This document shows, one piece after another, positions 20,160 to 36,737 of a stretch of DNA of 64,000 bases; position 1 is the first letter of the stretch; every line of letters starts with the position of its first letter. The stretch is taken from NCBI RefSeq assembly GCF_016744155.1, contig NZ_JADGEW010000001.1:124001-188000 (forward strand). The letters are read 5' to 3'. Source of the DNA: Amphritea sp. (lineage in GTDB: Bacteria; Pseudomonadota; Gammaproteobacteria; Pseudomonadales; Balneatricaceae). Position numbers and translations under genes: made by a program. The notes under the pieces were generated by a model. That model had not been told where the DNA came from. It did not search any database and saw nothing but the letters and a program-made list of their open reading frames with translations.

Positions 20160-20178
20160 TCACCGTCCGAGAGTTAAC

Positions 20179-20220: not shown

Positions 20221-20279
20221 CTAAGAATAAATATGCTGTTACAGGGCTAGCTGATGAAGATCAGAGCCCGGAGGTAAGT

Positions 20280-21323
20280 ATGACTACGATCCGTTTATCC
20301 CCGTCAGGTAAAGAAGTTGAAGCTAAATCCGGTGAAACTGTACTGGAAACCCTTGAAAATGCCGGTTATGCCCTGCCGAATAATTGCCGGGCTGGCGCTT
20401 GTGGTGAATGTAAAGTAAAGGTCTTGGATGGCGAGTTCGACCAAGGCCTTGTGATGGATATGGCGTTGTCTCAGGAAGAGCGGGCAGAAGGTTTTGGCCT
20501 GATGTGTATGTGTAAACCACTCAGCTCGACTCTTGAGATTGACTGGGGCACCGATGACGCGATGCCGAAACTGTTTCCGCCTAAGGAAAATGTCCGCTGC
20601 ATGATTGTCGATCGGATCGAACGTACCCCTCGTATCGCTGAGATCCGCTTACGCCCAGTTGGCGAAGCTATTCGTTTTTGGCCGGGGCAGTATGTGAGTC
20701 TGACGGATACTACCCGCTCTGTAACACCACGATCCTACTCAATTGCCAACGCTCCTCGTCCAGACGGTGAGATTATACTGCAGATCACACGGGTGCCTGA
20801 AGGTGAAACCAGTAACTGGGTGCATGATGAAGTACACCCGGGCACGATGATTAATCTGTCGGGCCCATACGGTACGTTTATCGGCGACCCAAGTACCGAT
20901 GCTCCGGTACTTTGTCTAGCCGCGGGCACTGGTCTGGCACCGATTATGGGCTTGGCGGATGCGGCATTGCGTCGGGGATACAATAAGCCGGTGCACTTGA
21001 TGTTCTCTGCCCGAAAAGAGGAAGATCTGTACTGCAAGGGGCAGTTAGAATTGTGGAATGTACGCCATCGTCGTTTCAAGTTTATTCCGACTTTAACCCA
21101 GGAAGATAAAGACGGTATTCTCCGTGGTCGTATTCCTAATATTCTAAAAGATCACTATCCAGACCTGTCAAAACATGCGATCTATATTGCGGGTAGTCCT
21201 GAATTTGTTGATGCCTGTATTGATGCTGCGAAAAAGCTAGGTGCTGAGGATGATATGATCCATACCGAAGGTTTCTTTGATCAGGCTTTGCCGGAAACGC
21301 CTGCGACAGACCGATTAGTCTGA
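20280..21323 (+). CDS. 2Fe-2S/FAD/NAD(P)H oxidoreductase, reductase component of the diiron protein
   Basis: This 347-residue protein has a plant-type ferredoxin domain (1-95, Cys pattern in NNCRAGACGECK and a last Cys in LMCMCKP), an FAD-binding domain (about 105-205, RSYSIAN) and an NAD-binding domain (LCLAAGTGLAPIMG; end motif IYIAGSPEFVDAC). It is the layout of phenol hydroxylase reductase and methane monooxygenase component C, which pass electrons from NAD(P)H to a diiron oxygenase. It follows the diiron gene after 120 bases with a good ribosome binding site (GGAGGTAAGT). No coupling (MmoB-like) protein is encoded here. Confidence 0.88.
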   Translation: MTTIRLSPSGKEVEAKSGETVLETLENAGYALPNNCRAGACGECKVKVLDGEFDQGLVMDMALSQEERAEGFGLMCMCKPLSSTLEIDWGTDDAMPKLFPPKENVRCMIVDRIERTPRIAEIRLRPVGEAIRFWPGQYVSLTDTTRSVTPRSYSIANAPRPDGEIILQITRVPEGETSNWVHDEVHPGTMINLSGPYGTFIGDPSTDAPVLCLAAGTGLAPIMGLADAALRRGYNKPVHLMFSARKEEDLYCKGQLELWNVRHRRFKFIPTLTQEDKDGILRGRIPNILKDHYPDLSKHAIYIAGSPEFVDACIDAAKKLGAEDDMIHTEGFFDQALPETPATDRLV

Positions 21324-21524: not shown

Positions 21525-22244
21525 ATGGAAACAGATAAAACTGAAATTGCATTTACCACCGCAGGTCTGACCAAAGTTTATGGTGAAGGCAGTGCGACGG
21601 TGCATGCTCTTCGAGGTGTTGATCTGCAAATTCCTCAGGGAGAGTTGGTGGTTTTACTCGGGGCCTCGGGCAGCGGAAAATCGACCCTGCTGAATATTCT
21701 AGGCGGGTTGGATCAGCCATCCTCGGGACAAGTGAGTTTTTTTGAACAGAACCTGAGTCGCATGAATGATGCTGATCTGACCCTCTATCGCCGCGACCAT
21801 ATCGGCTTTGTCTTCCAGTTTTATAATCTGATGCCAAGCCTTACTGCGCGCGAAAATGTCGAGCTGGTGACCGAAATTGCAGAAAATTCACTTAGCCCGG
21901 AAGAAGCTCTGGCGCTGGTGGGGTTGAGTGAACGGATGGATCACTTCCCGGCGCAATTGTCAGGAGGTGAGCAGCAACGGGTGGCAATTGCCCGGGCGGT
22001 GGCAAAGCAGCCCAGAGTATTGTTCTGTGATGAGCCCACCGGGGCGCTAGACAGTACCAGTGGCCGACAGGTGATGGAGGTACTGCAGCAGGTGAACCGG
22101 GAACTGGCGACTACGGTGGTTATTATTACTCATGCCGCAACGATTGCGGGCATGGCCGATCGGGTGATTCATTTTGCTGACGGGCAGATCAGAAAGATTG
22201 ATCTGAACGATCAAAAAACCTTAGCGCAAAACCTTGTCTGGTGA
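21525..22244 (+). CDS. ABC transporter ATPase (LolD/MacB-like)
   Basis: A 239-residue ATPase with Walker A GASGSGKS, a Q-loop in [10 protein letters not shown], the signature LSGGEQQR, Walker B VLFCDEP and the H-switch in VVIITHAA. This is the MacB/LolD/FtsE group, which pairs with FtsX-like permeases and works by mechanotransmission rather than classic import. It overlaps the leader of the permease gene. With the following permease and membrane-fusion protein it forms a complete export-type system. Confidence 0.93.
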
Positions 22245-22254
22245 GCATTTTTTT

Positions 22255-24636
22255 ATGCGCATGCTAACTGGTCTCTCACCTCTTGATCGTAAACTATTGC
22301 GGGACTTGTGGCGTATGAAGGGCCAGGCGTTGGCGATTGCGCTGGTGATCGCTCTGGGTGTGCTGATGCTGGTGATGATGAATGGTCTGGTTCGGTCGCT
22401 TGAAGATACCCGAACGGCCTATTATGAACGCCATCGACTTGCGCAGGTCTTTGCTCCTTTGCAACGGGCTCCCCAGTCACTCCTGGCACGGGTAGCCGTA
22501 CTAGAAGGGGTGACGGCAGTTGCAGGTAGGGTGACGGGTAGTGCTTTGATAAATATTCATGGCCAACCACTACCGCTGAGTGCTCAGGCCGTATCGCTGC
22601 CTGATCGGGGCGAGGCCAGACTTAATGATATCTACCTTACCTCCGGAAGGCGTCCCGATCCCTCCCATGAGGATGAGATCATTCTGTTGCAGGATTTCGC
22701 CAAAGCCCATGGATTGAAGTCCGGTGATCCTCTGTCAGCAACGATGCACGGTGCCCGTAGAACCTTCAGGATTGTCGGTTTGGCCCAGGCCCCTGAATTT
22801 CTATATTCAGCGGCTCCTGGGGAGTTTGTTCCCGATGATGCCCGGTTTGCGGTGATCTGGATGAGCCAATCAGCGCTGGCGGCGGTCTACGATATGAACG
22901 GTGCTTTCAATCAACTGCTGTTGGGAACCTCTGCGGGCAGTTCCCTGCCAGCGATTCTTGATCGGGTCGATACTCTGCTGGAGCCCTATGGTGGTTTGGG
23001 GGCTTATGGGTTGGCGGATCACGTTTCTAATCGTTTTATCGAAGAGGAGATCAGCGGTCTGAGGGTCTCCAGTCGTACGGTGCCGCCGGTGTTTTTGGCG
23101 GTGGCGGCCTTTCTCCTCAATATCGTCATTTCCAGAATGATTCAGTCGGAGCGGGAGCAGATTGGTCTGCTGAAAGCTTTTGGTTACAGAGATATTGAAA
23201 TTACTCTGCATTATTTGAAGTTTATTTTTGTCATCGCTGTTGGCGGGGCGCTGATCGGGTGTTTGCTGGGGGTTATCTCCGGTAGAAGTTTGGCGCAGGT
23301 CTATCAAAGTTATTACAAATTCCCTTTTCTGTTGTTCCAGGTCGACCCGATGACCTTTCTGATCGGTGTTCTGGTGAGCATTCTGGCTGCGGCTGCGGGG
23401 GGGATGGTGGTGTTGCAGTCCGTTTTCCGTCTCACGCCCGCGGTGGCGATGCAGCCACCGGCGCCCGCAGATTATAGTCGCTCTGCTGCGCTGGCTTCAT
23501 TTCTGAAACGCTTTCTGGACCAGCCGGGGCGGATGGTTGCCCGTCGACTGCTGCGCCAGCCCGGCAGAGCCGCTGGCGGAGTGATCGGTATCGCGGCAGG
23601 GATGTCATTGGCGGTGGCGATGCTCAATGTAATGAGCGCTTTTGATCGGACTCTGGAATTGAGTTTTAGTCTGATCGACCGGAGTGATCTGTCGGTGAGC
23701 TTCGTTGAATCGTTATCTGACAAGGTATTGTATGAGTTACAGAGTATTGATGGTGTTATAGAGGTGGAGCCCGTACGCACCGTTGCTGTTCTGTTCAGCA
23801 ATGGCCAGCACAGTTACCGGGGGGCTATAACCGGGCTGCCTCCGGCTGTCAGACTTAACCGGGCGCTGGATGTTCGACAGCAAACCATTCCGATGCGCTC
23901 AGAGGGGGTTGTGTTGGGAACCGCACTGGCCGATATTCTCCAGGTGAAGCCGGGAGATATGCTAAGCCTGGATGTCAGAGAGGGGCGCCAACCGCAGTTA
24001 CAGGTTCCGGTGACCGGGGTGGCAGACACATTAATCGGTTCCCCCGCTTATATGGCATTGGGTAGCCTGAATCGTGTCCTGCGAGAGCCGAATCGGGTAT
24101 CAGGGGCTTATCTGCGCATTGATAGTGCAAAGCAAGATACAATTTATAGGCAGATTAAAGCGTTGCCAGCGATTGCCGGGGTGAGTCTTAAACAGGAAGC
24201 CCGCGAGGCGTTTCAGACGCTGATTGATACCAGTGCCGGCGCAGTGCGTTATCTGATGGCGGCCATAGCCGGGGTGATTACTTTTGGTATTGTCTATAAC
24301 AGTGCGCGTATCGCCTTTGCTGAGCGAGCCCGGGATCTTGCCAGCCTCAGAGTCATAGGCTTTACCCGTGGGGAAACTGCGTTTGTGCTGTTGGCTGAGC
24401 TGGGTATCATTACATTGCTGGCGTTACCGCTGGGTGGGCTGTTCGGATATTTCCTGGTATTTGCTATATCTGAAGGCTTTAGTACCGATCTTTATAGGGT
24501 GTCGGCGGTGTTTGTGCCGCAAAGCTATGGGATAGCGGCGCTAGCCGTCATTATCGCGGCATTATTGTCAGGCTGGTTGGTAAAGCGAGATATCGACCGG
24601 ATAGATCTGGTTTCAGCTTTGAAAGTAAGGGAGTAG
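22255..24636 (+). CDS. FtsX-type ABC permease with duplicated FtsX domains
   Basis: I start this at the ATG at 22255, preceded by GGTGAG at proper spacing, giving 793 residues. A first TM helix (near 22-42) precedes a large periplasmic domain, then three TM helices with an FtsX domain (about 275-400). A second TM/periplasmic/FtsX unit fills the rest (TM near 435-455, last helices about 660-780). Ten-helix LolCE/YbjS-like permeases of this size move lipids, peptides or other hydrophobic substrates across or out of the inner membrane. The ATPase gene ends 11 bases upstream and the adaptor starts 8 bases downstream. The substrate is not evident. Confidence 0.9.
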   Translation: MRMLTGLSPLDRKLLRDLWRMKGQALAIALVIALGVLMLVMMNGLVRSLEDTRTAYYERHRLAQVFAPLQRAPQSLLARVAVLEGVTAVAGRVTGSALINIHGQPLPLSAQAVSLPDRGEARLNDIYLTSGRRPDPSHEDEIILLQDFAKAHGLKSGDPLSATMHGARRTFRIVGLAQAPEFLYSAAPGEFVPDDARFAVIWMSQSALAAVYDMNGAFNQLLLGTSAGSSLPAILDRVDTLLEPYGGLGAYGLADHVSNRFIEEEISGLRVSSRTVPPVFLAVAAFLLNIVISRMIQSEREQIGLLKAFGYRDIEITLHYLKFIFVIAVGGALIGCLLGVISGRSLAQVYQSYYKFPFLLFQVDPMTFLIGVLVSILAAAAGGMVVLQSVFRLTPAVAMQPPAPADYSRSAALASFLKRFLDQPGRMVARRLLRQPGRAAGGVIGIAAGMSLAVAMLNVMSAFDRTLELSFSLIDRSDLSVSFVESLSDKVLYELQSIDGVIEVEPVRTVAVLFSNGQHSYRGAITGLPPAVRLNRALDVRQQTIPMRSEGVVLGTALADILQVKPGDMLSLDVREGRQPQLQVPVTGVADTLIGSPAYMALGSLNRVLREPNRVSGAYLRIDSAKQDTIYRQIKALPAIAGVSLKQEAREAFQTLIDTSAGAVRYLMAAIAGVITFGIVYNSARIAFAERARDLASLRVIGFTRGETAFVLLAELGIITLLALPLGGLFGYFLVFAISEGFSTDLYRVSAVFVPQSYGIAALAVIIAALLSGWLVKRDIDRIDLVSALKVRE

Positions 24637-24643
24637 TGAAGTT

Positions 24644-25870
24644 ATGGCATCAAAACGGTCGGGGCACTGGTTATTGCTGGGTTGTGTTGCTGTTGTCGTG
24701 TTGCTGTTGGTCTGGGCGTTTATGCCACGGGCACTGCTGGTGGATATTGGTGTTGTCCAGCGGGGCGCTATGCATGAAACCATCGATGATGAGGGTAAAA
24801 CACAGGTACGGGATGCCTATGTTGTCTCAACGCCGGTCACCGGAAGGCTATTACGCATCGATGTTGAGCCGGGTGACCGGGTAGTTCAAGACAAAACGGT
24901 AGTGGCCCGTATGCTGCCATCCAACCCTGTCGCACTGGATAGTCGCAGTCGTGAACAGGCCCGCGCTGCTGTTTCATCAGCGGAGGCGGCCGTGCGGCTG
25001 GCCCGGGCAGAGCTCAATAAAGCGATGGCTGATACCGAGTTGAGTAGTGCCGAATTGGGCCGCATCAGTGATTTGCAAAAACGCGGAGCGATCAGTGTAT
25101 CTGCTTTAGATAAAGCCAAACAGACTTCGCGTGCCTCCAGCGCCCAGCTGGATATGGCGAAAGCCGCTATTTCAATGCGCCAGGCTGATCTGGCAACCGC
25201 CCGGTCACAGTTGATTACCTTTGTGCCGGGGCAGGCTGATAACAGTGCTGCAGGCTCCGATGTGATCAATATACTGGCACCGCACTCCGGTAGCATTTTG
25301 CGGGTGCTGCAGGAAAGTGAAACGACGCTGCCAGCAGGGCAGGCGATCTTGGAAATCGGCGACATCAACGAAGCGCTGGAGGTGGTTGTTGAACTGCTAT
25401 CCACCGATGCGGTAAAGGTGACGGCGGGTAATCGGGTGATTATCGAAAACTGGGGTGGAGCGAATGTTCTTGAGGGCGTTGTCGAGAAAGTTGAACCTTG
25501 GGGTTTTACCAAGTTCTCAGCCCTGGGTGTAGAGGAGCAACGGGTAAAAACCACCATTCAGTTTGCCAGCGATAACGAGCAGCGTGCCAGCCTTGGGCAT
25601 GGCTTCAGAGTAGAGGCCCGGATCGTTATCTGGGAGCAATCTGACGCACTCACTGTTCCCTCCAGCGCTTTGTTCCGGGATGGCAGTCGTTGGGCGGTCT
25701 ATGTGATTGAATCGGGTGTGGCAAGACTGAGGGCCGTTGAGGTGGATCATAACAACGGCATCAGTGCTGAAGTGTTGGGCGGTCTCGAAGAAGGCGAACA
25801 GATCGTGCTCTATCCGCCCGCAGAACTGAGTGATGGGAGCAAGGTGAAACCCCGCAGTATCCAAGATTAG
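24644..25870 (+). CDS. HlyD/MacA-type periplasmic adaptor (membrane fusion protein)
   Basis: A 408-residue adaptor with an N-terminal membrane anchor (9-30) and a split lipoyl domain (VSTPVTGRLLRIDVEPGDRV at about 65-84, and NILAPHSGSILRVLQESE further on). A helical hairpin (about 100-200) and a beta-barrel/MP region make up the rest. Such adaptors bridge an ABC permease to an outer-membrane channel. It is the third gene of the ABC unit, with 8 bases from the permease stop. No outer-membrane TolC-type gene lies in this cluster, so a shared TolC is likely. Confidence 0.9.
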   Translation: MASKRSGHWLLLGCVAVVVLLLVWAFMPRALLVDIGVVQRGAMHETIDDEGKTQVRDAYVVSTPVTGRLLRIDVEPGDRVVQDKTVVARMLPSNPVALDSRSREQARAAVSSAEAAVRLARAELNKAMADTELSSAELGRISDLQKRGAISVSALDKAKQTSRASSAQLDMAKAAISMRQADLATARSQLITFVPGQADNSAAGSDVINILAPHSGSILRVLQESETTLPAGQAILEIGDINEALEVVVELLSTDAVKVTAGNRVIIENWGGANVLEGVVEKVEPWGFTKFSALGVEEQRVKTTIQFASDNEQRASLGHGFRVEARIVIWEQSDALTVPSSALFRDGSRWAVYVIESGVARLRAVEVDHNNGISAEVLGGLEEGEQIVLYPPAELSDGSKVKPRSIQD

Positions 25871-26020: not shown

Positions 26021-26037
26021 TGATCGGTATCCGATCA
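26021..26037. promoter_or_regulatory. Dyad TGATCGG-TAT-CCGATCA, proposed regulator-binding site
   Basis: This is a perfect inverted repeat with 7-bp arms and a 3-base centre. The same core, GATCG-N5-CGATC, recurs at 30706-30720 upstream of the ABC transporter operon. Its centre is about 94 bases before the GG of the sigma-54-like element, a normal enhancer distance. I propose it as the binding site of the response regulator encoded at 27928. Confidence 0.6.
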
Positions 26038-26121
26038 TTCAAAACCAACCGAGCGAGCGATTTCCGCTCCTAATTGGCTGGCTGAGCGCTATTTAGGTTA
26101 TGCTTTATGGACTGATGTGCA

Positions 26122-26137
26122 TGGTTCTATTCTTGCA
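26122..26137 (+). promoter_or_regulatory. Sigma-54-like promoter of the sensor operon
   Basis: TGG at 26122-26124 and TTGC at 26133-26136 give the invariant GG and GC of the -24/-12 elements with exactly 10 bases between them. The -24 element is otherwise imperfect (TTC for CAC). If used, transcription would start near 26148, which rules out the GTG start at 26117. Confidence 0.45.
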
Positions 26138-26185
26138 TATGCTTTATTCACAAAAATAATAGTGTTCAGATCGCAGGCCTCACTT

Positions 26186-27931
26186 TTGAATGATGAACAT
26201 TCTGTAATTCGACATATTCGGTCACAAGAAACAGGAATCTCTTCCGATGAAGAGTTGCTGCAAACAAGTACGTCAAAAAATCGATTAGCTACTAAATATT
26301 TATGGCTGTCATTATTGGTGGCGCTTGTCCCCTTGGTAGGCTTCGCGAGCTTATACGACACTTATTTTTCTCAACTTGTCTCTCGTTTAACCGAGCAGCA
26401 GCTTTCAACGCCTATGGCGGCTAAACAAAATGAATTTCGGGTATTTCTTCGAGAGCGTAAATATGAACTGCAAGCGTTAGCCGATCAGTTTGATAATCCT
26501 GATTTCTATACACCTAATGGGCGGTACGCTATCTCCTCTGAATTAGAGGGATTATTGCGCTTACAGGTGGATACGAGAAGTGTGTATGGTGTTGTGTTCT
26601 TCGATCAAAAAGGACAAGTCGTCTGGACATTTCCTGAGGAGCAGACGGTTAAGCCCGCTTCGCTAATTCATATGCATGATTTTGAAGACGCAGAATTGAT
26701 TGGGCCGTCTGCTTATTCAATTGAGAGACCTTCATCCGTTATTCTTCGACAGTCAGGCAGACATGAATCAAGCGAAAATCGAGGGAGTATTGGCCTGATT
26801 CTTCGCTTTAACTCGCTAACTGAGGTCTTTCGAGGGCTTGGTCATGGGGGTTCAGTACGGGTTTTGCTGCAGGCGGGGGATGATAATATGTATGACGTTG
26901 TCGGTCAGCCTTCTCCGATAATCAGTACTTCAACACAGCAACGCACGCTCCTCCCCGGTTGGATTCTGCATGTGATACAAGACCCTGAACTAGTTATGAT
27001 GCCGGTTGAAGCAATGCGCTATTGGTTGCTTTTACTGATGGCCTGCACTGTTGCCGGGCTGCTGTGGTTGCATATGAGTATCTCTCGACGATTAAATCGG
27101 CAGGTTGAAAGTTTGATTGATAGTGTGGAAAAAGTCGCTCTGGGTAATCTGGAAACTCCCGTGGCTATTGTACAAGGGGTGGAAATGCACCGCCTTACTC
27201 AAGCCATAGAGCGTATGAGACTTCAACTGAAGGCGTTTATTCGGTCAACCCTGGCAATAGAACGACAGGCAACCCTAGGACAGTTAGCGGCAGGTCTTGC
27301 ACATGATATCAGGAACCCCCTGACGACCATTCGTACGACGGTAGCGGCGCTTTCTCGTAGAGAGAGAAACCCCGAAAGCCGAGAGATGATGGCGTTGGTA
27401 GAGGAGGAGATTGACAGAGTAAATGATGTATTGGAGAACTTACTAAACTTTGCCCGCCCCCGAGATCCTTATGCCACCCGGCTAGATACCGCTGAATTGC
27501 TGAATAGTATTGTGACTCTGGTAGGTGCGTCAGCACGTAATCAGGGAATAAAATTAAGCGTTGATAGTGTGGACTCGTTAGTCATTTGGGCCGATGAAGG
27601 TCATATCAGACAGATTTTGATGAATCTTATATTGAATGCGTTGGAAGCGATGTCAGTTAAGGGCAGTACGATATTGCTTCGGGCAGTTAAATCAGCAAAT
27701 GAGATTAAAGTGTCAGTCAGTGATGATGGTCAGGGCATGCCAGATGATATTCAAGCTCATATTATGGAGCCTTTTTATACAACCAAGCCTGCAGGAACAG
27801 GCTTGGGATTGGCAATCTGTGCAACCCTGGCTAAAAGTAATGGTGGGCGGCTGATGATAGAAAGTATTGATAGTAGCGGCACAAAGGTGACGGTGTTTCT
27901 TCCTGCCGCCTCTGAGGAGGAGTACGAATGA
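26186..27931 (+). CDS. Membrane sensor histidine kinase of the ABC-uptake system
   Basis: The frame extends to a GTG at 26117, but a sigma-54-like promoter lies inside that stretch, so I prefer the TTG at 26186 (581 residues); the start is uncertain. A first TM helix (about 38-60) is followed by a periplasmic sensor domain of about 220 residues, a second TM helix (about 282-300), HAMP, the HisKA box (GLAHDIRNPLTTI, phospho-His) and the ATPase domain (N box MNLILNALEAM, G1 DDGQGMP, G2 GTGLGLAI). It overlaps the response regulator gene by ATGA. A periplasmic binding protein is encoded in the same operon and may present the ligand. Confidence 0.88.
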   Translation: MNDEHSVIRHIRSQETGISSDEELLQTSTSKNRLATKYLWLSLLVALVPLVGFASLYDTYFSQLVSRLTEQQLSTPMAAKQNEFRVFLRERKYELQALADQFDNPDFYTPNGRYAISSELEGLLRLQVDTRSVYGVVFFDQKGQVVWTFPEEQTVKPASLIHMHDFEDAELIGPSAYSIERPSSVILRQSGRHESSENRGSIGLILRFNSLTEVFRGLGHGGSVRVLLQAGDDNMYDVVGQPSPIISTSTQQRTLLPGWILHVIQDPELVMMPVEAMRYWLLLLMACTVAGLLWLHMSISRRLNRQVESLIDSVEKVALGNLETPVAIVQGVEMHRLTQAIERMRLQLKAFIRSTLAIERQATLGQLAAGLAHDIRNPLTTIRTTVAALSRRERNPESREMMALVEEEIDRVNDVLENLLNFARPRDPYATRLDTAELLNSIVTLVGASARNQGIKLSVDSVDSLVIWADEGHIRQILMNLILNALEAMSVKGSTILLRAVKSANEIKVSVSDDGQGMPDDIQAHIMEPFYTTKPAGTGLGLAICATLAKSNGGRLMIESIDSSGTKVTVFLPAASEEEYE

Positions 27932-29283
27932 ATAATGCGATTTCGGTTCTGGTAATAGATGATGAGCGAAACCTGGTGCGTAGTATCGGTTTCTCCCTTA
28001 AGGATGAAGGGATGCAAGTGACAGGAGCCTATACCGGGAGCGAAGGTATAGAGTCTGCAAAAGTTTTAAGCCCTGATGTCGTGTTACTAGACCTTGGACT
28101 GCCAGATATATCCGGGATCAAAGTATTAGTTCAATTGAAAGCACAGTATCCAGACCTACCAGTGATAATGATATCTGCCCATGGAGACACTCGATCAGCA
28201 GTTAAAGCCGTTAAAGAAGGAGCTATCGACTACATCACCAAGCCGTTTGATGTTGAGGAGCTGGTGTTGTTGATACGGCGTAGCACTGAACGTATCAGAA
28301 TGCTTCGTGAAATCCGTTTTCTTCGAGAACGTAATACAGAGACAGGTCCATTAGTTGGCAGTAGTAAAGAGATGTCAATGCTACGCACAGCGATCGAATT
28401 AGTTGGGCAGAGCTCGGGTAAAACCGTATTGATTACTGGGCCTTCAGGGACAGGTAAAGCGTTGGTCGCCCGTGCTCTCCATGACTTTCGTTTTACTAAT
28501 GCACCCTTTATTGAAGTCAATTGTGCGGCCTTGCCAGAACAGTTGATTGAGGCTGAATTGTTTGGCGCGGAGCGGGGGGCTTATACGGGGGCTAATCAGC
28601 GTAGAGCAGGTTTGATTGATCTAGCTGATGGAGGGACACTTTTTTTAGATGAGATTGGTGAGATCCCTTTGCATCTTCAAGCTAAGCTACTTAGCTTTCT
28701 TGAAAATCGCAACTATCGCCCGGTGGGAGCAGGCAGGGAGCGTCAGGCGAATGTGTTTGTGGTAGCTGCTACAAACCGTAATTTGAAAGAGGATGTCGAC
28801 TCAGGAGTTTTTAGAGCGGATTTGTTTTATCGGTTGAATGTGCTGCCAGTGGATATTCCCGGACTATCGCAACGAGATAGGGATGTGATCCTTCTGTTAA
28901 CCCATTTCAGTGAGTTATTTGCCAAACAGGAAGGATGTGAGCCGATACAGCTGGAAGATTCAGTTCTAAGTCTGTTGGAACAATATGATTGGCCAGGAAA
29001 TATCCGGGAATTGAAAAACTTGATGGAGCGATTGACTATTCTCTATCCGGGTAAACAGATTACGGTTGATATGTTGCCTGTCGAGTTTCATAGCGGTAAG
29101 CGTGGGGTTCCAGAAGTTAAAGATGATTATCGTGAAGCGGTTGAAGATCATGAACGTCAGTTGATTTTGGACGCACTTAAAGAGTCCGATTGGCGAAAAG
29201 GTTTGGCTGCCGAAAAACTGGGAATATCCCGACATGCCTTAAAGCGCAGGATACAACGGCTTAATTTGGAGAATGAAGGATGA
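27928..29283 (+). CDS. NtrC-family sigma-54 response regulator
   Basis: This 451-residue regulator has a receiver domain (1-120, phospho-Asp in VVLLDLGLPD, Lys in DYITKPF), an AAA+ domain (Walker A GPSGTGKA, Walker B FLDEIGE) and a Fis-type helix-turn-helix (KGLAAEKLGISRHALKRRIQ). The sigma-54 contact loop reads GAYTGA rather than GAFTGA, a conservative change found in functional family members. It overlaps both neighbours by four bases. The likely target is the sigma-54 promoter at 30795 before the ABC transporter operon. Confidence 0.93.
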   Translation: MNNAISVLVIDDERNLVRSIGFSLKDEGMQVTGAYTGSEGIESAKVLSPDVVLLDLGLPDISGIKVLVQLKAQYPDLPVIMISAHGDTRSAVKAVKEGAIDYITKPFDVEELVLLIRRSTERIRMLREIRFLRERNTETGPLVGSSKEMSMLRTAIELVGQSSGKTVLITGPSGTGKALVARALHDFRFTNAPFIEVNCAALPEQLIEAELFGAERGAYTGANQRRAGLIDLADGGTLFLDEIGEIPLHLQAKLLSFLENRNYRPVGAGRERQANVFVVAATNRNLKEDVDSGVFRADLFYRLNVLPVDIPGLSQRDRDVILLLTHFSELFAKQEGCEPIQLEDSVLSLLEQYDWPGNIRELKNLMERLTILYPGKQITVDMLPVEFHSGKRGVPEVKDDYREAVEDHERQLILDALKESDWRKGLAAEKLGISRHALKRRIQRLNLENEG

Positions 29284-30512
29284 TTTCCAGAATGTTCGGG
29301 ATCATTCTGTTGTTGGCTACTATTACTGTCGAGGGGGCGGAGTTGTCCGTTGGTGCTTCTGAGGCAGAGGCTCAAGAAACAGTTGGTTGCTTATTTCCAA
29401 TGAGTGGTAGAGGTGGATTATATGGCCGTGACAGTGTTGCTGGTATTCAGTTGGCTTTTGAACATATAAAAGCGCAACCTTATCAAAGTCCTCCTATACG
29501 CGTTCTATTTTCGGACACTAGTTCTAAGGCTTCTAAAGCGGCAAGGCAGGTAAGAAACTTTGTCCGTCAGAATAAAGTACGTTTCATCTGTGGAGTGGTC
29601 AACTCTTCGATTGCGTTGCAGGTCGCTCAGGTAGCTCAGGAGGAGAAAGTTTTCTTTATTGGTACTGACCATGCTTCATCGCGGCTCACAGGTGGCGAGC
29701 CGAACCGGTTTTACTTTCGGGTGAATAATAATTCTGAACAATCGATGCGGGCCGCTGCAAGTTATATTCGTAAAACCTTTATTAAGGGGAGTGCTAAGAA
29801 TCCTTTACGCTTGGCATATATAGGCCCTGATTATGATTATGGTTATCAGGCATGGAAAGACTTACGGTTATGGTTGAATAAGGAAAAGGTGCATTATCAG
29901 GTTGAAACTGTACTCTGGCCGGAGCTTTATGAGTCGGATTACTCTCATTATCTGGAAGCCTTACTCGATAAAGATGTTGATTTAGTTGTAAATTCTCTCT
30001 GGGGTGGTGATCTGGTTGCTTTCATTCAACAAGCGAATCAGACCTCTCTGTTTGAGCACGCGCGCTTTGCTAACTTTGATACAGGTGGTAACTACGAAGT
30101 GTTATCTGCTCTGGGGGAGAATATGCCAGCGGGGCTTATTTTATCGTCAAGGCACCATAATAATTGGCCTGAGACGGAACATAATCGTTGGTTCGTAGAA
30201 CGTTTCTATGAATTGACCGGGCGATATCCATCCTATGCTGCTGAGGGCGCTTATTCCGGTATTCTAGCGATATCTGAGGCGCTTCGACTAGCAGGTCCTG
30301 ATGCCGATAATGATCTAATACGAGAAAAATTAGCTAGTCTTACCCTGACTCTTCCTGAAGACCCTGATCAGTTTAGCTCCTACATGAACCCGCGTAATCA
30401 TCAGTTACAGCAAGCCATTGCTATCGGTGAAACCGTACCTGATGATCGCTATCCTCCGGCACGTATGATGTTAGGTAATTGGGTAATATATCGGCCGGCT
30501 GGCCCCGATTAA
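29280..30512 (+). CDS. Periplasmic type 1 binding protein co-transcribed with the sensor kinase
   Basis: A 410-residue protein of the Leu/Ile/Val-AmiC-urea binding protein group: signal-like N terminus (5-20), CLFPMSGRGGLYGRDSVAGIQLAFEHI, VRFICGVVNSS, RFYFRVNNNSEQS and IGPDYDYGYQAW. It overlaps the regulator gene by ATGA, so it is made with the kinase and regulator rather than with the transporter. The transporter operon has its own, only distantly similar, binding protein. I infer that it delivers the ligand signal to the kinase, or that it is a specificity variant. The motif DYDYGYQAW is paralleled by YSFGHESW in the transporter protein. Confidence 0.85.
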   Translation: MISRMFGIILLLATITVEGAELSVGASEAEAQETVGCLFPMSGRGGLYGRDSVAGIQLAFEHIKAQPYQSPPIRVLFSDTSSKASKAARQVRNFVRQNKVRFICGVVNSSIALQVAQVAQEEKVFFIGTDHASSRLTGGEPNRFYFRVNNNSEQSMRAAASYIRKTFIKGSAKNPLRLAYIGPDYDYGYQAWKDLRLWLNKEKVHYQVETVLWPELYESDYSHYLEALLDKDVDLVVNSLWGGDLVAFIQQANQTSLFEHARFANFDTGGNYEVLSALGENMPAGLILSSRHHNNWPETEHNRWFVERFYELTGRYPSYAAEGAYSGILAISEALRLAGPDADNDLIREKLASLTLTLPEDPDQFSSYMNPRNHQLQQAIAIGETVPDDRYPPARMMLGNWVIYRPAGPD

Positions 30513-30670
30513 AGCTAGTGATCTAGCCAATTTCTTTTATCTATCCTCTTATTTCCCCTTGAATTTTCGTACACCTCCTCTAGAGCATTAGGCTCAGCTC
30601 GGCGTATTACTTTACGTTGAGTAATCTTTAATAACAGGCTTACAACGTTGTAATTCTTCGTATCTATTTC

Positions 30671-30721
30671 TGATCGGAAGCAGCGCATCCGCGGCGCTCA
30701 CAGTTGATCGGAATTCGATCT
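30671..30721. promoter_or_regulatory. Upstream activator sites for the ABC operon
   Basis: TGATCGG occurs at 30671-30677 as a half-site and again, 34 bases on, as the dyad TGATCGG-AAT-TCGATCT at 30705-30721. The core GATCG-N5-CGATC equals that of the perfect dyad before the sensor operon. The centre lies about 85 bases before the -24 element, one helical turn different from the spacing at the sensor operon. Confidence 0.6.
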
Positions 30722-30794
30722 TTTTTATATGTTTCTCGACGCCGAAATAATAATAAATTCTTTTTAAACAAATGGTTACGTCTATTCCTCTCTC

Positions 30795-30811
30795 TTGGTA
30801 TGTAGGTTGCA
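30795..30811 (+). promoter_or_regulatory. Sigma-54 (-24/-12) promoter of the ABC operon
   Basis: The sequence TTGGTATGTAGGTTGCA matches TTGGCACG-N4-TTGCA closely, with GG and GC 10 bases apart. Transcription would start near 30822, 105 bases before the first gene. An NtrC-type regulator is encoded 1.5 kb upstream. Confidence 0.82.
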
Positions 30812-30927: not shown

Positions 30928-32217
30928 ATGATCACATCCTTTGTTAAAAAGTCCACTTTAGCTGGGTTGCTTGTCGCTTCGGCGGTTGCTCAACCGGTAC
31001 TAGCCGCCGATGAGTATAAATTAGGTCTGGTTACTTTTCTTTCAGGTGGTGCGGCAGGTCCTTTTGGCGTTCCTGCTAAGAATGCTGCTGATTTAGTGTT
31101 GGAGACCCTGAATGCAGGAGGCCTTCCTGCACCCTATAACATGAAAGGCATAAACGGCCGTACCATTAAACCGGTATATGTAGATGAAGCCGGTGGAGCC
31201 ACCAAGCAGGCTTCTGAGTTACGTAATCTTGTTGAGCGTCAAGGAGTTGACTCGGTAGTCGGTTATATCTCATCTGGGGATTGTTTAGCGGTGCCAGCCG
31301 TAGCTGAAGAGCTAAAGACATTGACTGTGCTATTTGATTGCGGAACACCTCGAGTATTTGAAGATAGTAGTTATCAGTATGTGTTTCGCACCGGTCCTAC
31401 CGCAACGATGGATAATGTAGCCGCCTCTCACTATATCAAGGAGATGTTTCCAAAGTTGGATTCCGTTTCAGGTATAAACCAGAACTACTCTTTTGGTCAT
31501 GAATCATGGGCTGACTTCAATGGGTCGCTAAACAAACTGATCCCAAATGTTGAAGTTACCACTAAGCAATTCCCGAAAATTTATGCGGGACAGTATGGGG
31601 CTGAGATTTCAGCGCTTATGGTTAATTCGGCTAACGTTATTCACTCCTCGTTCTGGGGTGGCGATATGGAAGCCTTCCTGCTACAGGGCTCTGCACGAGG
31701 ATTGTTTGAAGATCAGACCGCAGTGCTGACCACCGGTGAAAGTGCTATGTATCGTCTGGAAGGCCAGATTCCTGAAGGAACTATTCTAGGAGGGCGTGGG
31801 CCATTCGGTATTTATGCGCCGGATAATGCGCTTAATCGTTGGTTCCGTGAAGCTTATATCGCTCGTTTTGAAACAGCACCAACCTACCCCGCTTATAAAA
31901 TGGTTCAGGGTATTTTTGGTCTGAAACTGGCAACAGAAAAAGCGGCTGAAAAGGTAAAAGGTCAGCCTACCACCGAGGATGTCGTTTCAGCATTCGAGAA
32001 CCTTGTGTATGAAGGTCCTGGTGGCACAGTCTCAATGAATATGGGGAATGGTCATCAGGCTTCTATGGAGATGGTATACGGACGTTATTCTCATAAAAGC
32101 GGAGAGCCATCAGTGACTGATGTTCGCCGTTATCCGGCTGCATGTGTAAACCCACCTGAAGGTATGTCTTCGATTGAATGGATTGAAAAAGGGATGCCTG
32201 GCGCTAAATGTAATTAA
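30928..32217 (+). CDS. ABC transporter periplasmic substrate-binding protein (LivJ-like)
   Basis: I start this at the ATG at 30928, which gives a clean signal peptide (FVKKSTLAGLLVASAVAQPVLAAD) and 429 residues; an ATG six codons earlier (30910) lacks a ribosome binding site. The mature protein is a type 1 binding protein: LGLVTFLSGGAAGPFG, VDSVVGYISSGDCLAV, YVFRTGPTATMDNVAA. Cys residues in SGDCLAV and FDCGTPR could form a disulphide. It opens the transporter operon and is followed by a hairpin that should raise its share of the transcript over the permeases. The ligand is unknown; family members bind amino acids, amides, urea or aromatic acids. Confidence 0.92.
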   Translation: MITSFVKKSTLAGLLVASAVAQPVLAADEYKLGLVTFLSGGAAGPFGVPAKNAADLVLETLNAGGLPAPYNMKGINGRTIKPVYVDEAGGATKQASELRNLVERQGVDSVVGYISSGDCLAVPAVAEELKTLTVLFDCGTPRVFEDSSYQYVFRTGPTATMDNVAASHYIKEMFPKLDSVSGINQNYSFGHESWADFNGSLNKLIPNVEVTTKQFPKIYAGQYGAEISALMVNSANVIHSSFWGGDMEAFLLQGSARGLFEDQTAVLTTGESAMYRLEGQIPEGTILGGRGPFGIYAPDNALNRWFREAYIARFETAPTYPAYKMVQGIFGLKLATEKAAEKVKGQPTTEDVVSAFENLVYEGPGGTVSMNMGNGHQASMEMVYGRYSHKSGEPSVTDVRRYPAACVNPPEGMSSIEWIEKGMPGAKCN

Positions 32218-32295: not shown

Positions 32296-33192
32296 ATGAA
32301 ACTGGTAATTGCGATGTTGATGGATGGCGTTATATACGCATCCTGGCTGTTTATAATCGCTGCAGGTCTAACGCTCATCTATGGTGTGATGAGAATTCTT
32401 AATATGGCTCATGGTAGTTTCTACGCCATAGGCGCTTATTCAGGAGCCTCGTTAGTAGGTTTTTATCTTGCCGGTGGTTATCCACCCTGGGGTGCTTATT
32501 TGATGTTGCTGGGTGCCGCAATTGTTAGCGGTGCTCTGGTCGGGATCCTGATCGAACGTGGTTTACTAAGAATCATGTATGGGCGTGATGAAGTGGTCAT
32601 GATTCTGGTGACCTATGCCATTTTATTAATCCTGGAAGATGTGATTAAGCTGATCTGGGGCGTTGATGCTTATTTTGCGTATCAGCCTTATACACTTCTC
32701 GGCCGCACAAAAATGGCGGGCATCTCATTTGCCAATTATGACATTGCGCTGATTTTCGTCGCCGCAAGCATATGCTTCTTGTTGTGGTGGGGACTTAATC
32801 GGACGCGTCAAGGCAAGCTTCTACAAGCGGTTATTCATGATCGTGATACCGCTGCTTTTCTGGGAATCAATGTCACAAAAATGTTTTCAATAACCTTTGT
32901 TATTGGTGCCGTACTGGGTGCGCTTGCAGGTTCTCTGACAGCCCCCGGTATCTCCGTGATGCCGGGTATTGGTGTTGAAGTCATTATTCTGGCTTTTGCT
33001 GTGGTTGTTATTGGCGGTTTAGGCAGTGTTGGTGGTGCGCTTATGGGGGCTCTTATTGTCGGTCTGGCCCGTTCTGCGGCCGTTCATCTTTACCCAGAGG
33101 CAGAGCTATTCGTTATTTATGGCGTTATGGGCTTAGTACTTGCCTTTAGACCTCAGGGTTTGTTTGCCATTGCTACTGCAAGGAAAATTTAA
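32296..33192 (+). CDS. Branched-chain-type ABC permease (LivH-like)
   Basis: A 298-residue integral membrane protein of the LivH group, with about eight TM helices and the family motifs GLTLIYGVMRILNMAHGSFYAIGAY near the start and AFAVVVIGGLGSVGGALMGALIVGLARS near the end. It pairs with the LivM-type permease that starts 2 bases downstream of its stop. A GGAG ribosome binding site precedes the ATG. Confidence 0.94.
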   Translation: MKLVIAMLMDGVIYASWLFIIAAGLTLIYGVMRILNMAHGSFYAIGAYSGASLVGFYLAGGYPPWGAYLMLLGAAIVSGALVGILIERGLLRIMYGRDEVVMILVTYAILLILEDVIKLIWGVDAYFAYQPYTLLGRTKMAGISFANYDIALIFVAASICFLLWWGLNRTRQGKLLQAVIHDRDTAAFLGINVTKMFSITFVIGAVLGALAGSLTAPGISVMPGIGVEVIILAFAVVVIGGLGSVGGALMGALIVGLARSAAVHLYPEAELFVIYGVMGLVLAFRPQGLFAIATARKI

Positions 33193-33193
33193 T

Positions 33194-34132
33194 ATGAGAA
33201 ATTCAACGCTGCTTGTGCTTGGCGCAGGTGTTGCAGTTATGGCTGCAGGCATGGTGATGCCCGGTTGGTTGACCTTTCTTTTGACGCTGGCACTGGCTAA
33301 AGGGCTGGTTGTCATGGGGTTGTTACTGTTGATGAAGGCGGGCCTAGTGTCATTTGGTCAGGGGCTTTATTACTGTCTCGGGGCCTATTGTGTAGGTGTC
33401 GCAGGGGACTATCTGGAAACCCAGAATGCGCTGTTTCTGATGCTTATAGCGGTTGTTGTGTGTGTCGCATTAGCCGCGGTTATAGGCCTTCTGTTATGCC
33501 GCTATCGGGACATATTTTTTGCTATGTTTTCTATGGCATTTTCAATGATTCTTTACGGCGTTCTGGTTAAGAGTTCAGCGTTCGGTTCCTCTGATGGTTT
33601 TAATGTTAAGCCACCATTGCTATTTGGCTGGACTCCGACTGGCGAGCCAGGGCCATTGATGGCATACGGGTTAGCAGTAACGGCGGTGACTGTCGTCGGT
33701 ATTTTTGTATGGAACTACCTCCGTTCCCCTATGGGCTACGCAGGCGAGGCGGTGCGTGAGAATGAAATAAGAGTTGAATATCTAGGCTCTTCTGTACGCC
33801 GAATTATCTACATTAAATATCTTTTAGCAGCGGCGATGGCCGGACTGGGAGGAGGGATAACCGCTCTGGCTGCAGGCCACATTGACCCGGAAATGGCCTA
33901 TTGGACCACATCCGGAGAGTTTGTATTCATTGCGCTCATGGGGGGAACGGGCCATGTTGCCGGGCCTGTGATTGGGGCCGTTTTGTTCGAATTGATCAGA
34001 ACCTATGCGTTTCAGATATCGCCTTATACCTGGCAGATGATTTTGGGTATTGCACTGCTGGCTATCATTCTTTACCTGCCAAAAGGTGTTTGGTCTCTGG
34101 TCGAGCGTTTCACTAAGGAGAAGACGTCATGA
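33194..34132 (+). CDS. Branched-chain-type ABC permease (LivM-like)
   Basis: The 312-residue product starting at the ATG at 33194 is a LivM-type permease (GLLLLMKAGLVSFGQGLYYCLGAYC; ALMGGTGHVAGPVIGAVLFELIRTY). It forms the heterodimeric channel with the LivH-like protein. A longer frame from 33140 overlaps the previous gene and adds no recognisable sequence. Its stop overlaps the ATPase start by four bases. Confidence 0.94.
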   Translation: MRNSTLLVLGAGVAVMAAGMVMPGWLTFLLTLALAKGLVVMGLLLLMKAGLVSFGQGLYYCLGAYCVGVAGDYLETQNALFLMLIAVVVCVALAAVIGLLLCRYRDIFFAMFSMAFSMILYGVLVKSSAFGSSDGFNVKPPLLFGWTPTGEPGPLMAYGLAVTAVTVVGIFVWNYLRSPMGYAGEAVRENEIRVEYLGSSVRRIIYIKYLLAAAMAGLGGGITALAAGHIDPEMAYWTTSGEFVFIALMGGTGHVAGPVIGAVLFELIRTYAFQISPYTWQMILGIALLAIILYLPKGVWSLVERFTKEKTS

Positions 34133-34911
34133 GTGCTTTATTAGAAACACGCTCATTAGCTCGAAACTTCGGAGCAGTGACAGCCGCCGCAGATATTGAT
34201 GTCAGCATCAATGCGGGAGAGATCGTCGGTGTAATAGGTTCAAACGGTGCGGGTAAAACCACGTTTATCAATATGGTGACTGGATATCTGCAGCCTAGCA
34301 GTGGCGACATATTGTTCAAGGGTAAAAGTATTGTAGGGAAGAATCCACGTCAGGTTATGCGGGCAGGGATATGCCGTTCTTTTCAGGTGGCGCAGTTGTT
34401 TCCTGAATTGACGGTACTGGATAACGTTTTAATCGCTTACGGGCTAATGCAGCATCGAGTACTGCCAATGTTTCGTCCTTTGGCGACAGGAAACAGTATT
34501 AAACAGGCTGAAAACTTGCTTCAAGAGTATGGCATTGAGAGCTACCTGCCCGAAAAGGTGATGACGTTGCCGCAAGGGGTAAGGAAGTTGCTGGATATAG
34601 CGCTGGCAATGCTCCGTGAGCCGGAAGTCCTTCTGTTAGATGAGCCCACCTCAGGTGTTGCTATCGACGATAAATTCGACCTGATGGATACCGTTATGCA
34701 GGCGGTACGTAAATCGGGAGCAGGGGTGTTGTTTGTTGAACATGATATGGAGGTTATCGCTCGTTATTCAACTCGCTTAATCGCTTTCTATGACGGACGA
34801 GTGTTGGCAGATGGTCCGGTTGCAGAGGTTATGGACAATGAAAAAGTGAAAGAGTTGGTTACCGGACATCACCTTGAAATCGATTATAAGCGGGAGGTGG
34901 CCCATGCTTAA
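34129..34911 (+). CDS. Branched-chain-type ABC ATPase (LivG-like)
   Basis: A 260-residue ATPase with Walker A GSNGAGKTT, Walker B VLLLDEPTSG and the H-switch EHDM. The signature loop reads LPQGVRKLLDIA instead of the usual LSGGQQ, a pattern found in LivG-like proteins. It is fused to the operon by overlaps with the permease (ATGA) and the LivF-like gene (8 bases). Confidence 0.93.
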   Translation: MSALLETRSLARNFGAVTAAADIDVSINAGEIVGVIGSNGAGKTTFINMVTGYLQPSSGDILFKGKSIVGKNPRQVMRAGICRSFQVAQLFPELTVLDNVLIAYGLMQHRVLPMFRPLATGNSIKQAENLLQEYGIESYLPEKVMTLPQGVRKLLDIALAMLREPEVLLLDEPTSGVAIDDKFDLMDTVMQAVRKSGAGVLFVEHDMEVIARYSTRLIAFYDGRVLADGPVAEVMDNEKVKELVTGHHLEIDYKREVAHA

Positions 34912-35572
34912 ACTTTCATCTATCAACACCTATATTGCGGGAACACCTATTTTACGCGATGTAAATATGCACATTGAATCTGGTGTGCTGGTGGGTCTTA
35001 TCGGGCGAAATGGCGCAGGCAAGACCACTCTGATGCGCACAGTGATGGGGCTACTTACTCCATCATCCGGCAGCATCATCATTGAAGGTCAGGATATGAC
35101 CGCTTTAGCTCCACACTTTCGTTCTCAGTCAAAAGTTGGCTATATGCCAGAAGATCGTCAGTTAGTCCCAACATTGACGGTCGAAGAAAATATTCTAATT
35201 CCTGCATGGGCAAACAAACTACCTGAAGCAGAGGCCAGGCTTGCCTGGGTATATGAACTTATGCCTGAAGTTGAGGCGTTCGCCGATCGTAAAGCACTTC
35301 AGCTTTCTGGCGGACAGCAGAAGCTGGTTTCTCTGGCCCGGGCGATGATGAGTGGTAGCCATCTGCTGTTACTTGATGAGCCTTTCGAAGGCGTTGCTCC
35401 GGCGCTATCGCGCCGCTTAGCCAGTGTATTGCACACCCTGAAAGATGAGGGACTGACAGTGCTGATTTCAGAGTCTGATTATAGTCATTCAGCTGATCTG
35501 GTTGACCAGGTTTACACCATCGAACGAGGTGCCGTCTCAGCACCAAAGCAGATTAATGGAGAAGTAGCATGA
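34904..35572 (+). CDS. Branched-chain-type ABC ATPase (LivF-like)
   Basis: A 222-residue ATPase from the ATG at 34904, preceded by GGGAGGTGG. It has Walker A GRNGAGKTT, GYMPEDRQLVPTLTVEENI typical of LivF, signature LSGGQQK and Walker B LLLLDEPFEGVAP. It completes a full five-protein importer. It overlaps the dehydrogenase gene by ATGA, tying transport to catabolism. Confidence 0.93.
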   Translation: MLKLSSINTYIAGTPILRDVNMHIESGVLVGLIGRNGAGKTTLMRTVMGLLTPSSGSIIIEGQDMTALAPHFRSQSKVGYMPEDRQLVPTLTVEENILIPAWANKLPEAEARLAWVYELMPEVEAFADRKALQLSGGQQKLVSLARAMMSGSHLLLLDEPFEGVAPALSRRLASVLHTLKDEGLTVLISESDYSHSADLVDQVYTIERGAVSAPKQINGEVA

Positions 35573-36729
35573 ACAGTTTCGTTTTTAATTTCCCTAAGCA
35601 GTTTATTTGTAAGCCCGGTGCGGTCAAAGAGTTAGGTGACATCTGCCTGCGAGTTGTAGGTAAGCGAGTTTTGATTGTGACTGATCAGGGTATTGTTAAT
35701 GCTGGGTTGCTCCAGCCTGTCATAGATGTGCTTAAAGCTGCCGCTATAGAGCCGATTATTTTCGACAAGGTAGAAGCTGATCCAGCTGAATCTATTGTAT
35801 TAGCCGCTACCGGACAGGCGATCGCTGAAGGGGTTGACGGTGTAATCGGTTTGGGTGGCGGCTCCTCTATGGACGTGGCTAAACTGGTCGCACTGTTGGC
35901 CAAAGGGGAGGAAGTTCTAGAGGATATTTATGGGGTAAACCTTGTTAAGGGGCGTAGATTACCACTGATTCAGATTCCTACGACCGCAGGTACTGGCTCT
36001 GAAGTTACCGCTGTGGCTATTATCACCGTCGGTGAGGGAGAGAAGAAGGGAGTTGTTTCGGATCAACTACTACCGGATCTTGCTTTACTAGATGCAGAAC
36101 TGACCTTAGGGCTGCCGCCCATAGTAACTGCGACAACGGGAGTTGATGCCATGGTACATGCTATTGAGGCATACACTTCGCATAACCCAAACCATAACCT
36201 GATTTCCGATGCTGTCGCTAAAGAAGCACTGGTTTTACTAGGAGGAAATATTCAGGCTGCGATCACTGATGGTCGCAACCTTGAGGTCCGCTCTAACATG
36301 CTGCTGGGCTCAATGCTGGCAGGCCAGGCGTTTGCAAATTCACCGGTTGCGGCTGTTCATGCGTTGGCTTATCCCCTTGGTGGGATCTATCACTTGTCCC
36401 ACGGACTGACAAATGCCTTGGTTCTGCCTCATGTGATGCGTTTTAACCAAGTTGTTTGTGCCGATCTTTATGCTGCTTTGGCGCCGCTGGTCTTTCCTGA
36501 ATTAAGGGCTATAGAAAATAGCGAAGACCGAAGTAATGCATTTATTGATGCCTTGGCTGAGCTTAACGTTTCTCTAGGCATTAAAGACCGGTTACGGGAT
36601 TACGATATTCCGGAGTCTGCAATACCAAAGTTAGCGGAAGACGCAATGAAGCAGACGCGTTTGTTGGTCAATAATCCACGAGAAGTCAGCATCGATGATG
36701 CACTGGCAATCTATCAAGCGGCTTGGTGA
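35569..36729 (+). CDS. Iron-containing (group III) alcohol dehydrogenase
   Basis: This 386-residue NAD(P)-dependent enzyme has the nucleotide-binding [12 protein letters not shown], the family stretch [17 protein letters not shown] and metal ligands in [13 protein letters not shown] and [16 protein letters not shown] (Asp and three His). Group III dehydrogenases oxidise or reduce alcohols, including 4-hydroxybutyrate, lactaldehyde and butanol. Being translationally coupled to the transporter and followed by a semialdehyde dehydrogenase, it probably oxidises the imported alcohol or hydroxyacid to an aldehyde. The substrate is inferred. Confidence 0.93.
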
Positions 36730-36737
36730 GGAATAAT

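Follow-up and report, generated by a model that had tools for sequence, protein, structure and literature searches.

The question raised by this locus is whether two short dyads, each standing before a different operon, are operators of the regulator that is encoded between them. The DNA analysed (the window) is a stretch of 64,000 nucleotides from Amphritea sp. (contig NZ_JADGEW010000001.1, positions 124,001 to 188,000), in which an operon for a sensor histidine kinase (HK), an NtrC-type response regulator and a solute-binding protein (SBP1) is followed by an operon for an ATP-binding cassette (ABC) transporter, with its own solute-binding protein (SBP2), and for oxidation enzymes. A sequence-only reading of the window had proposed that a dyad shared by the two promoters, GATCG-N5-CGATC, marks an autoregulated module. 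The analysis described here suggests that the window dyads are halves of tandem enhancers, and that the two operons very probably form a positively autoregulated NtrC-type tandem enhancer module for substrate uptake and oxidation.

The unit at the two promoters is a tandem pair of dyads

Upstream of the HK gene lie a distal dyad at 26022-26036 (GATCGGTATCCGATC) and, 33 bp from it, a perfect promoter-proximal dyad at 26055-26069 (GAGCGATTTCCGCTC). These are followed on the forward strand by a -24/-12 (sigma-54) element at 26122-26137 (TGGTTCTATTCTTGCA, GG-N10-GC), which is weaker than consensus. The distal dyad centre is 93 bp from the start of the -24 box and the proximal dyad centre 60 bp from it. 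The transporter operon is preceded by a degenerate distal dyad at 30672-30686 (GATCGGAAGCAGCGC, two mismatches) and, 34 bp further on, by a proximal dyad at 30706-30720 (GATCGGAATTCGATC), the centre of which is 83 bp from a forward-strand -24/-12 element at 30796-30811 (TGGTATGTAGGTTGCA, again GG-N10-GC). Both elements have a TGGC/TTGC context, and each has two mismatches to TGGCAC-N5-TTGCW. Since the GTG start assigned mechanically to the kinase, at 26117, overlaps the first element, a TTG at 26186 is the likelier start.

The perfect dyad that the sequence-only reading placed before the HK gene, and the near-perfect one before the ABC operon, are thus both present upstream of -24/-12 elements, the second also having perfect 5-bp arms. 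The dyads described were real but made up only half of the unit, the second HK dyad at 26055-26069 having been missed. Likewise, the distances given as about 94 and 85 bp are close to the measured 93 and 83 bp, but the statement that they lie one helical turn apart does not hold, because the missed dyad is the promoter-proximal one at the HK promoter and the comparison therefore paired non-equivalent sites.

Taken singly, neither motif is distinctive. With up to one mismatch, GATCG-N5-CGATC has four matches in the window against 1.72 expected, a count reached in nine of 100 shuffles, and the -24/-12 pattern with up to two mismatches occurs 43 times against 36.7 expected, that is, at chance frequency alone. 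The organism's own genome (4,151,203 bases in 48 contigs) contains seven perfect copies of GATCG-N5-CGATC and 14 of the relaxed form GAKCG-N5-CGMTC, compared with six for the backward control. Eleven of these 14 lie outside the locus, all of them inside stop-to-stop frames, of at least 212 codons in eight cases and of 96-97 codons in three; because those three frames are so short, the dyads within them may be intergenic. None of the 11 is proposed as a further target. The unit that exceeds chance is the tandem pair, not the single dyad.

A sequence-only profile of the pair was built from 29 of 36 listed pairs, the window's two included. When 150 of 1130 first-look candidates in the own genome were scored at E<=10, the profile matched at two window places only, the HK promoter (E 1.7e-6) and the transporter promoter (E 0.017). 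At E<=0.1 at least one match was obtained in all 27 genomes that carry the module, a figure that is not independent of the profile because many of these genomes supplied training pairs. The strong matches fall in the module region, as judged from contig and coordinate, and three weak ones lie on other contigs (E 0.011, 0.068 and 0.073). In a scan of 54 relatives, for which 110 candidates per genome were scored under stricter filters, the profile matched all four genomes with SBP1 and the module, and one of the 50 others, weakly (G033, E 0.004) and within a 565-codon open reading frame.

The predicted operator is shared by loci that carry SBP1

Relatives of the locus were collected by using an alignment of SBP1 to scan GTDB genomes. 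Of the 141 loci confirmed, the best 80 (given L numbers) were kept; together with the window and two contig pieces of the congener G004 (G004a and G004b) they form a set of 83 sequences comprising 1.66 Mb. SBP1 itself is rare: at E<=1e-30 four of 57 relatives have it, and at E<=1e-80 it is present in 12 of 390 genomes from the order and in eight of 398 from a phylum sample, all of these counts including the own genome.

All 5-letter inverted repeats with gaps of 0-14 (0-17 for the gaps between regulator and SBP1) were enumerated against mirror controls. The same repeat, GAGCG-N5-CGCTC, came top in all three positions: upstream of HK (14/77; mirror 4), in the SBP1-SBP2 gaps (20/68; mirror 6) and between the regulator and SBP1 (33 of the 39 loci with a gap above 120 bp; mirror 8). 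A matrix of 70 sites reads TGAGCG-N5-CGCTCA with an A/T centre, and a larger site set agrees; the outer T and A and the A/T centre are conserved even though they lay outside the site selection. The general predicted site is TGAGCG-N5-CGCTCA in tandem, of which GATCG-N5-CGATC is a local variant. The literal GATCG-N5-CGATC put forward as a binding site fails as such, since the own genome has seven perfect copies and, of the 83 sequences, just the window (two copies) and L024 (one) contain it. The conservation that had been asked of the dyads is nevertheless found once the motif is taken as a tandem GAKCG-N5-CGMTC.

Two sites were counted as a pair if they lay 28-44 bp from each other and had no more than two mismatches in 20 letters, and a pair was called a module pair if a module gene followed within 750 bp. 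On this definition 78 of the 83 sequences have a pair before a module gene, and 90 of the 95 pairs in the 1.66 Mb are so placed. Their targets are SBP1 (37), SBP2 (25), the kinase (14), the aldehyde dehydrogenase (11) and the iron alcohol dehydrogenase (3). The autoregulatory layout is not universal, as the figure of only 14 kinase pairs makes plain, and two of these 14 (L077 and L093) lie between divergent HK and SBP1 genes. Most module pairs are perfect (58), with one mismatch in 24 and two in eight, and the spacing within the pair is 31-34 bp in 81, 41 bp in five and 28-30 bp in four. Two two-fold sites, about an integral number of helical turns apart and upstream of a promoter, are the arrangement of a tandem enhancer. 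Tandem pairs were found in 12/77 gaps upstream of HK and in 24/68 SBP1-SBP2 gaps, the letter-shuffle mean being 0.01 in each case, and for the tandem unit this refutes the explanation that a short palindrome recurs by chance in intergenic DNA, an idea that the near-chance counts of the single dyad in the window and genome might otherwise have encouraged.

Later protein searches returned 16 loci, nine of them duplicates, leaving seven outside the defining set, some of which are close kin of earlier ones. All seven have the pair: it is perfect in five, has two mismatches in L146, and in L154 consists of two perfect dyads just 23 bp apart, which under the 28-44 bp rule count as a pair with two mismatches. 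Each also encodes a regulator with GA[FY]TGA or GSYTGA, and six have a -24/-12 box scoring at least 13.3 in the scanned stretch; the L154 box (TGGCATTGCGGTTGCT), read by eye, is much further downstream. In the Sinorhizobium meliloti copy of the module (L138), which encodes a regulator lacking the GAYTGA loop, the SBP1-SBP2 gap contains a perfect pair with a spacing of 31 bp.

The pair accompanies its target genes

In L038, L046 and L049, where the oxidation genes (iron alcohol dehydrogenase) run in the opposite direction, a third pair stands at their new start and has a -24/-12 box to itself. L058 and L089 have an inverted transporter block with the pair at its start, and in G054 the pair accompanies the transporter, which lies about 28 kb away from SBP1. 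Where SBP1 adjoins the transporter genes, as in the Pseudomonas-, Magnetospirillum- and Thalassospira-like layout, the pair is upstream of SBP1, and in the Marinomonas-like layout it is upstream of the aldehyde dehydrogenase gene in 11/11. The pair moves together with the transporter or catabolic genes. L079 has a second pair (3513-3568), which directly follows the regulator gene at a great distance from SBP1 (at 10001) and possibly marks a further target operon.

The distance from the proximal dyad centre to the -24 box is 79-83 bp at 11/15 SBP2 promoters and at 11/11 aldehyde dehydrogenase promoters, and 49-131 bp at SBP1 promoters. At the HK promoters of L022, L023, L024, L038, L046, L049 and L051 the same 59-61 bp is found as in the window. 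Across 39 genus-and-target medians (loop-keeping regulators, box score at least 12.5) the distances cluster near 60, 70-75, 79-84, 91-95, 104-108 and 130 bp. These clusters are suggestive of helical phasing at most, the best period being 11.65 (R 0.55) and 10.5 fitting less well (0.44), among relatives that are not independent.

The sigma-54 box is lost together with the GAYTGA loop

The window regulator (27928-29283, forward strand) comprises a receiver, a sigma-54 AAA+ domain with a GAYTGA loop and a Fis-type helix-turn-helix (HTH; LGISRHALKRRIQRL). It matches PF00072, PF00158 and PF02954, the domain layout of the NtrC family (group I), and so bears out its earlier description as an NtrC-type activator. 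The loop is retained in 69/79 rows of the regulator tree, and the loop-less regulators form one fully supported clade in a tree made with the loop's own columns included.

Presence of the box follows presence of the loop. Where a pair precedes SBP1, SBP2 or a catabolic gene, the -24/-12 score reaches 12.5 in 64/65 cases with GAYTGA and in 0/10 without. In the SBP1-SBP2 gaps alone, at a threshold of 13, a box is present in 16/16 loop-keeping and 0/9 loop-less cases (L039 and G004b unscored), and at kinase promoters, at a threshold of 12, in 7/11 and 0/9, respectively. Sigma-54 (PF04552) was found in all 11 loop-keeping genomes tested (of the 69 rows), and the own genome has rpoN. In six of the ten loop-less genomes PF04552 was not found; its presence in the other four indicates that rpoN loss is not needed for loop loss. 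Three of those six are named isolates (Litorivita, Ruegeria and Pelagimonas), so sequence missing from metagenome-assembled genomes cannot explain all of the absences.

The ten loci of the loop-less clade and the Sinorhizobium plasmid copy share two other features, both spotted after alignment and not predicted. First, in 8/11 a TTG is found with its first base exactly 28 bp downstream of the proximal dyad centre. Second, GGGAGGA is found at +83 to +88 from that centre, upstream of SBP2, in 10/11 (L041, L042, L045, L050, L058, L060, L063, L071, L075 and L138), L059 being different; it occupies the position of the sigma-54 box of loop-keeping relatives, and is also present in 6/59 loop-keeping gaps. 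Hexamers resembling a -10 element, read by eye 17 bp beyond the TTG, are clear only in some loci (L041, L042 and L060). The TTG may be part of a -35 element. In the alphaproteobacterial-type loop-less clade and in the plasmid copy, which is outside the tree, the enhancer may well have become a sigma-70-type operator, a natural conversion to a proximal activator site near -62. By keeping its operator, such a clade would offer a natural experiment in the transition from an ATP-driven enhancer system to a sigma-70-type activator.

A model for regulation and its alternatives

In the model favoured here, each window dyad would be one half of a tandem enhancer on which the intervening regulator acts. 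Each 17-bp palindrome (general form TGAGCG-N5-CGCTCA; here partly TGATCG/CGATCA) would be bound by a dimer of the phosphorylated regulator, and two such dimers about three helical turns apart would nucleate the AAA+ oligomer. By DNA looping the oligomer would then reach the RNA polymerase that sigma-54 holds at the -24/-12 element, and it would open the promoter by means of its GAYTGA loop. The first enhancer is predicted to drive the kinase-regulator-SBP1 operon, giving positive autoregulation, and the second the operon for the ABC transporter, alcohol dehydrogenase, thioesterase and aldehyde dehydrogenase. The kinase probably responds to the transported compound, which could be sensed by its dCache-like periplasmic domain, perhaps through SBP1. 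As to the identity of this compound, a hydroxy acid such as 4-hydroxybutyrate would be a guess, based on the dehydrogenase pair, the MBL-fold hydrolase of the plasmid copy and a likeness to blcABC.

The proposal of an autoregulated module with a shared site is supported by the pairs in 78/83 sequences and in 7/7 further loci, by their movement with the target genes and by the co-occurrence of box and loop. On this comparative evidence the interpretation stands, although the site, its pairing and its spacing all needed correction. If it is right, one regulator gains a specific predicted operator in dozens of bacteria, with a predicted regulon that is essentially a single uptake and oxidation module.

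Several observations weigh against the model. The -24/-12 score at the HK promoter is only 12.3 in the close relatives L022 and L023, 11.0 in L051 and 11.3 in L074. The distal transporter dyad of the window is degenerate, and the profile scores that pair at no better than E 0.017. Five of the 83 sequences have no counted module pair: L055 begins 82 bp before SBP1; G004a and G004b are the halves of a split locus, the pair in G004b preceding a paralogue that was missed by the gene filter; L066 has one perfect dyad; and in L084 the pair is before the transporter, about 28 kb from SBP1. We devised the -24/-12 score ourselves and set the thresholds for it (12 and 13, later 12.5) after looking, and the loop-keeping exception L036 and the best loop-less locus L050 both score 12.3, so that a threshold of 12 would give 65/65 against 1/10. 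Finally, because the loop-less regulators form a single clade, the contrast of 64/65 with 0/10 represents one evolutionary event, and p-values computed from it are not those of independent cases.

The alternative that best survives these data accepts the operator but holds that the site before the HK operon brings about negative or weak autoregulation in place of sigma-54 activation. It fits the weaker -24/-12 elements of the HK promoters (12.3-12.8 in the window, L022 and L023), the many relatives that have no pair before HK, and the loop-less clade, in which the HK-proximal dyads overlap the inferred HK start. It is nonetheless unlikely, given that in eight loop-keeping HK promoters, the window's included, the -24 box keeps a distance of 59-61 bp to the proximal dyad, and so conserved an arrangement suits activation.

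It is much less probable that the dyads belong to another transcription factor, global or unlinked, and that the NtrC-type regulator uses other sites. The persistence of the dyads in genomes whose regulator has lost the sigma-54 loop is what such a factor would lead one to expect. Among the 54 relatives, however, the pair co-occurs with the module, apart from the one weak match within an open reading frame in the other 50; it moves with the module genes; the presence of the sigma-54 box tracks the loop of this very regulator; and the regulators of the set differ little at their HTH end.

A role of the dyads as intrinsic terminators for the genes that precede them is hardly credible, despite the TTTTTT that follows GATCGGAATTCGATC at 30706-30720 and led to its being flagged as terminator-like, the flagging of 26069-26051 on the minus strand, and the many pairs that lie shortly behind a gene end. 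A run of four T residues within 10 bp of an outer edge is found in just 14/90 pairs, and the two flagged stems have only six base pairs each. Also against terminators are the spacing of 31-34 bp in 81/90 pairs, the pairs that precede inverted genes, and the conserved central A/T and flanking T and A.

Relation to known systems

The closest parallel is enteric NtrC at glnAp2, where a group I enhancer-binding regulator likewise has its two-fold sites in pairs, some tens of bp ahead of the -24/-12 promoter. The enteric NtrC site is also 17 bp long with an N5 centre (TGCACC-N5-GGTGCA), and the sites there are spaced by 32 bp. The window module differs in its half-site, TGAGCG in place of TGCACC, and in that its regulator is local to one uptake and oxidation module; the regulator scores 383.8 bits against the NtrC (NR(I), TIGR01818) equivalog cut-off of 558.6. 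Tandem NtrC sites and looping at glnA are described in PMC7408454 and PMC4740811.

AtoS and AtoC are the best NCBIfam matches of the window kinase and regulator, and the kinase core also resembles ZraS. Both proteins are far below the AtoSC equivalog cut-offs (kinase 209 against 646 bits; regulator 383.9 against 714 bits for AtoC, NF008469), and the window module, unlike AtoSC and ZraSR, adds SBP1 and a LIV-type transporter.

A precedent for the loop-less clade is provided by the NtrC proteins of Rhodobacterales and Caulobacter without GAFTGA, as described in PMC10274813. The loop-less NtrC of Rhodobacter capsulatus and Caulobacter is nevertheless a different regulator with a different operator, and in the present module the operator has been traced across the change, together with the loss of the -24/-12 box.

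The catabolic genes recall another system. The blcABC operon for gamma-butyrolactone and 4-hydroxybutyrate encodes an iron alcohol dehydrogenase and a succinate-semialdehyde dehydrogenase. The same dehydrogenase pair is present here, and in the Sinorhizobium plasmid copy a gene for an MBL-fold hydrolase lies between the alcohol and semialdehyde dehydrogenase genes. The present module differs from blcABC in that genes for an enhancer-binding regulator and for an ABC transporter stand next to the dehydrogenase pair, and the window has a thioesterase in place of the hydrolase. Pseudomonas putida KT2440 uses 4-hydroxybutyrate through other genes, according to PMC7090098.

No description of the module or of its operator was recognised in the literature searched, many subscription papers lying outside its coverage; the TGAGCG occurrences noted in PMC4482717 are primers. 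Tandem enhancers and loop-less sigma-70 activators are already known kinds, to which the present regulator, operator and regulon seem to add a new example.

Genes of the two operons and their surroundings

All genes of both operons are on the forward strand. The HK gene (26186-27931, its TTG start deduced from alignment with L022-L024) encodes HAMP, HisKA and HATPase_c domains. Because a fold search with the whole kinase returned mainly kinase cores among the matches listed, the periplasmic domain was modelled in isolation (AlphaFold, mean pLDDT 88); the model is similar to dCache-type sensor domains, the first fold match being the domain of sporulation kinase D (E 4e-6, TM about 0.6). Sequence searches of the PDB named no ligand. 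SBP1, a Peripla_BP_6 protein (29280-30512), is encoded together with the kinase and regulator, as would be expected of a three-component system, and the order HK-regulator-SBP1 is found in most loci. The exceptions are L057, with neither kinase nor regulator in the 8 kb upstream, the rearranged loci L077, L079 and L093, and the short pieces L055, L095 and G004b.

The second operon begins with SBP2 (30928-32217, start inferred), the solute-binding protein of the ABC transporter. It continues with two permease genes of the LIV/urea type (32296-34132; the first at 32296-33192, the second in an open reading frame listed from 33140), for the first of which alone Pfam and NCBIfam matches were obtained, and with two ABC ATPase genes (34129-35572) assigned by synteny and translation. 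These are followed by genes for an iron-containing alcohol dehydrogenase (35569-36729), a 4HBT-type thioesterase (36723-37175) and an aldehyde dehydrogenase of the succinate-semialdehyde dehydrogenase subfamily (37186-38640; TIGR01780, 697 bits, above cut-off).

Upstream of the module, at 19134-21323 of the window, a weakly AurF-like gene (PF11583, under cut-off) adjoins a gene for a BenC/MmoC-like ferredoxin reductase; neither was found in the other loci, in which about 7 kb before HK was covered. A MacB-like exporter set occupies 21525-25870, and a similar set is present in L061 only. In Sinorhizobium meliloti the entire module (L138, 1442-20113) is located on plasmid pC, which is typed as conjugative, between integrase and transposase genes. 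The accessory neighbours of the module vary among the other loci and include PF04199 cyclase-type hydrolases (L074, 16343-17311; L088, 17256-18293), a TRAP transporter (L028, 15903-17825) and a zinc alcohol dehydrogenase (L086, 16027-17157). These varying genes are a useful clue towards the substrate.

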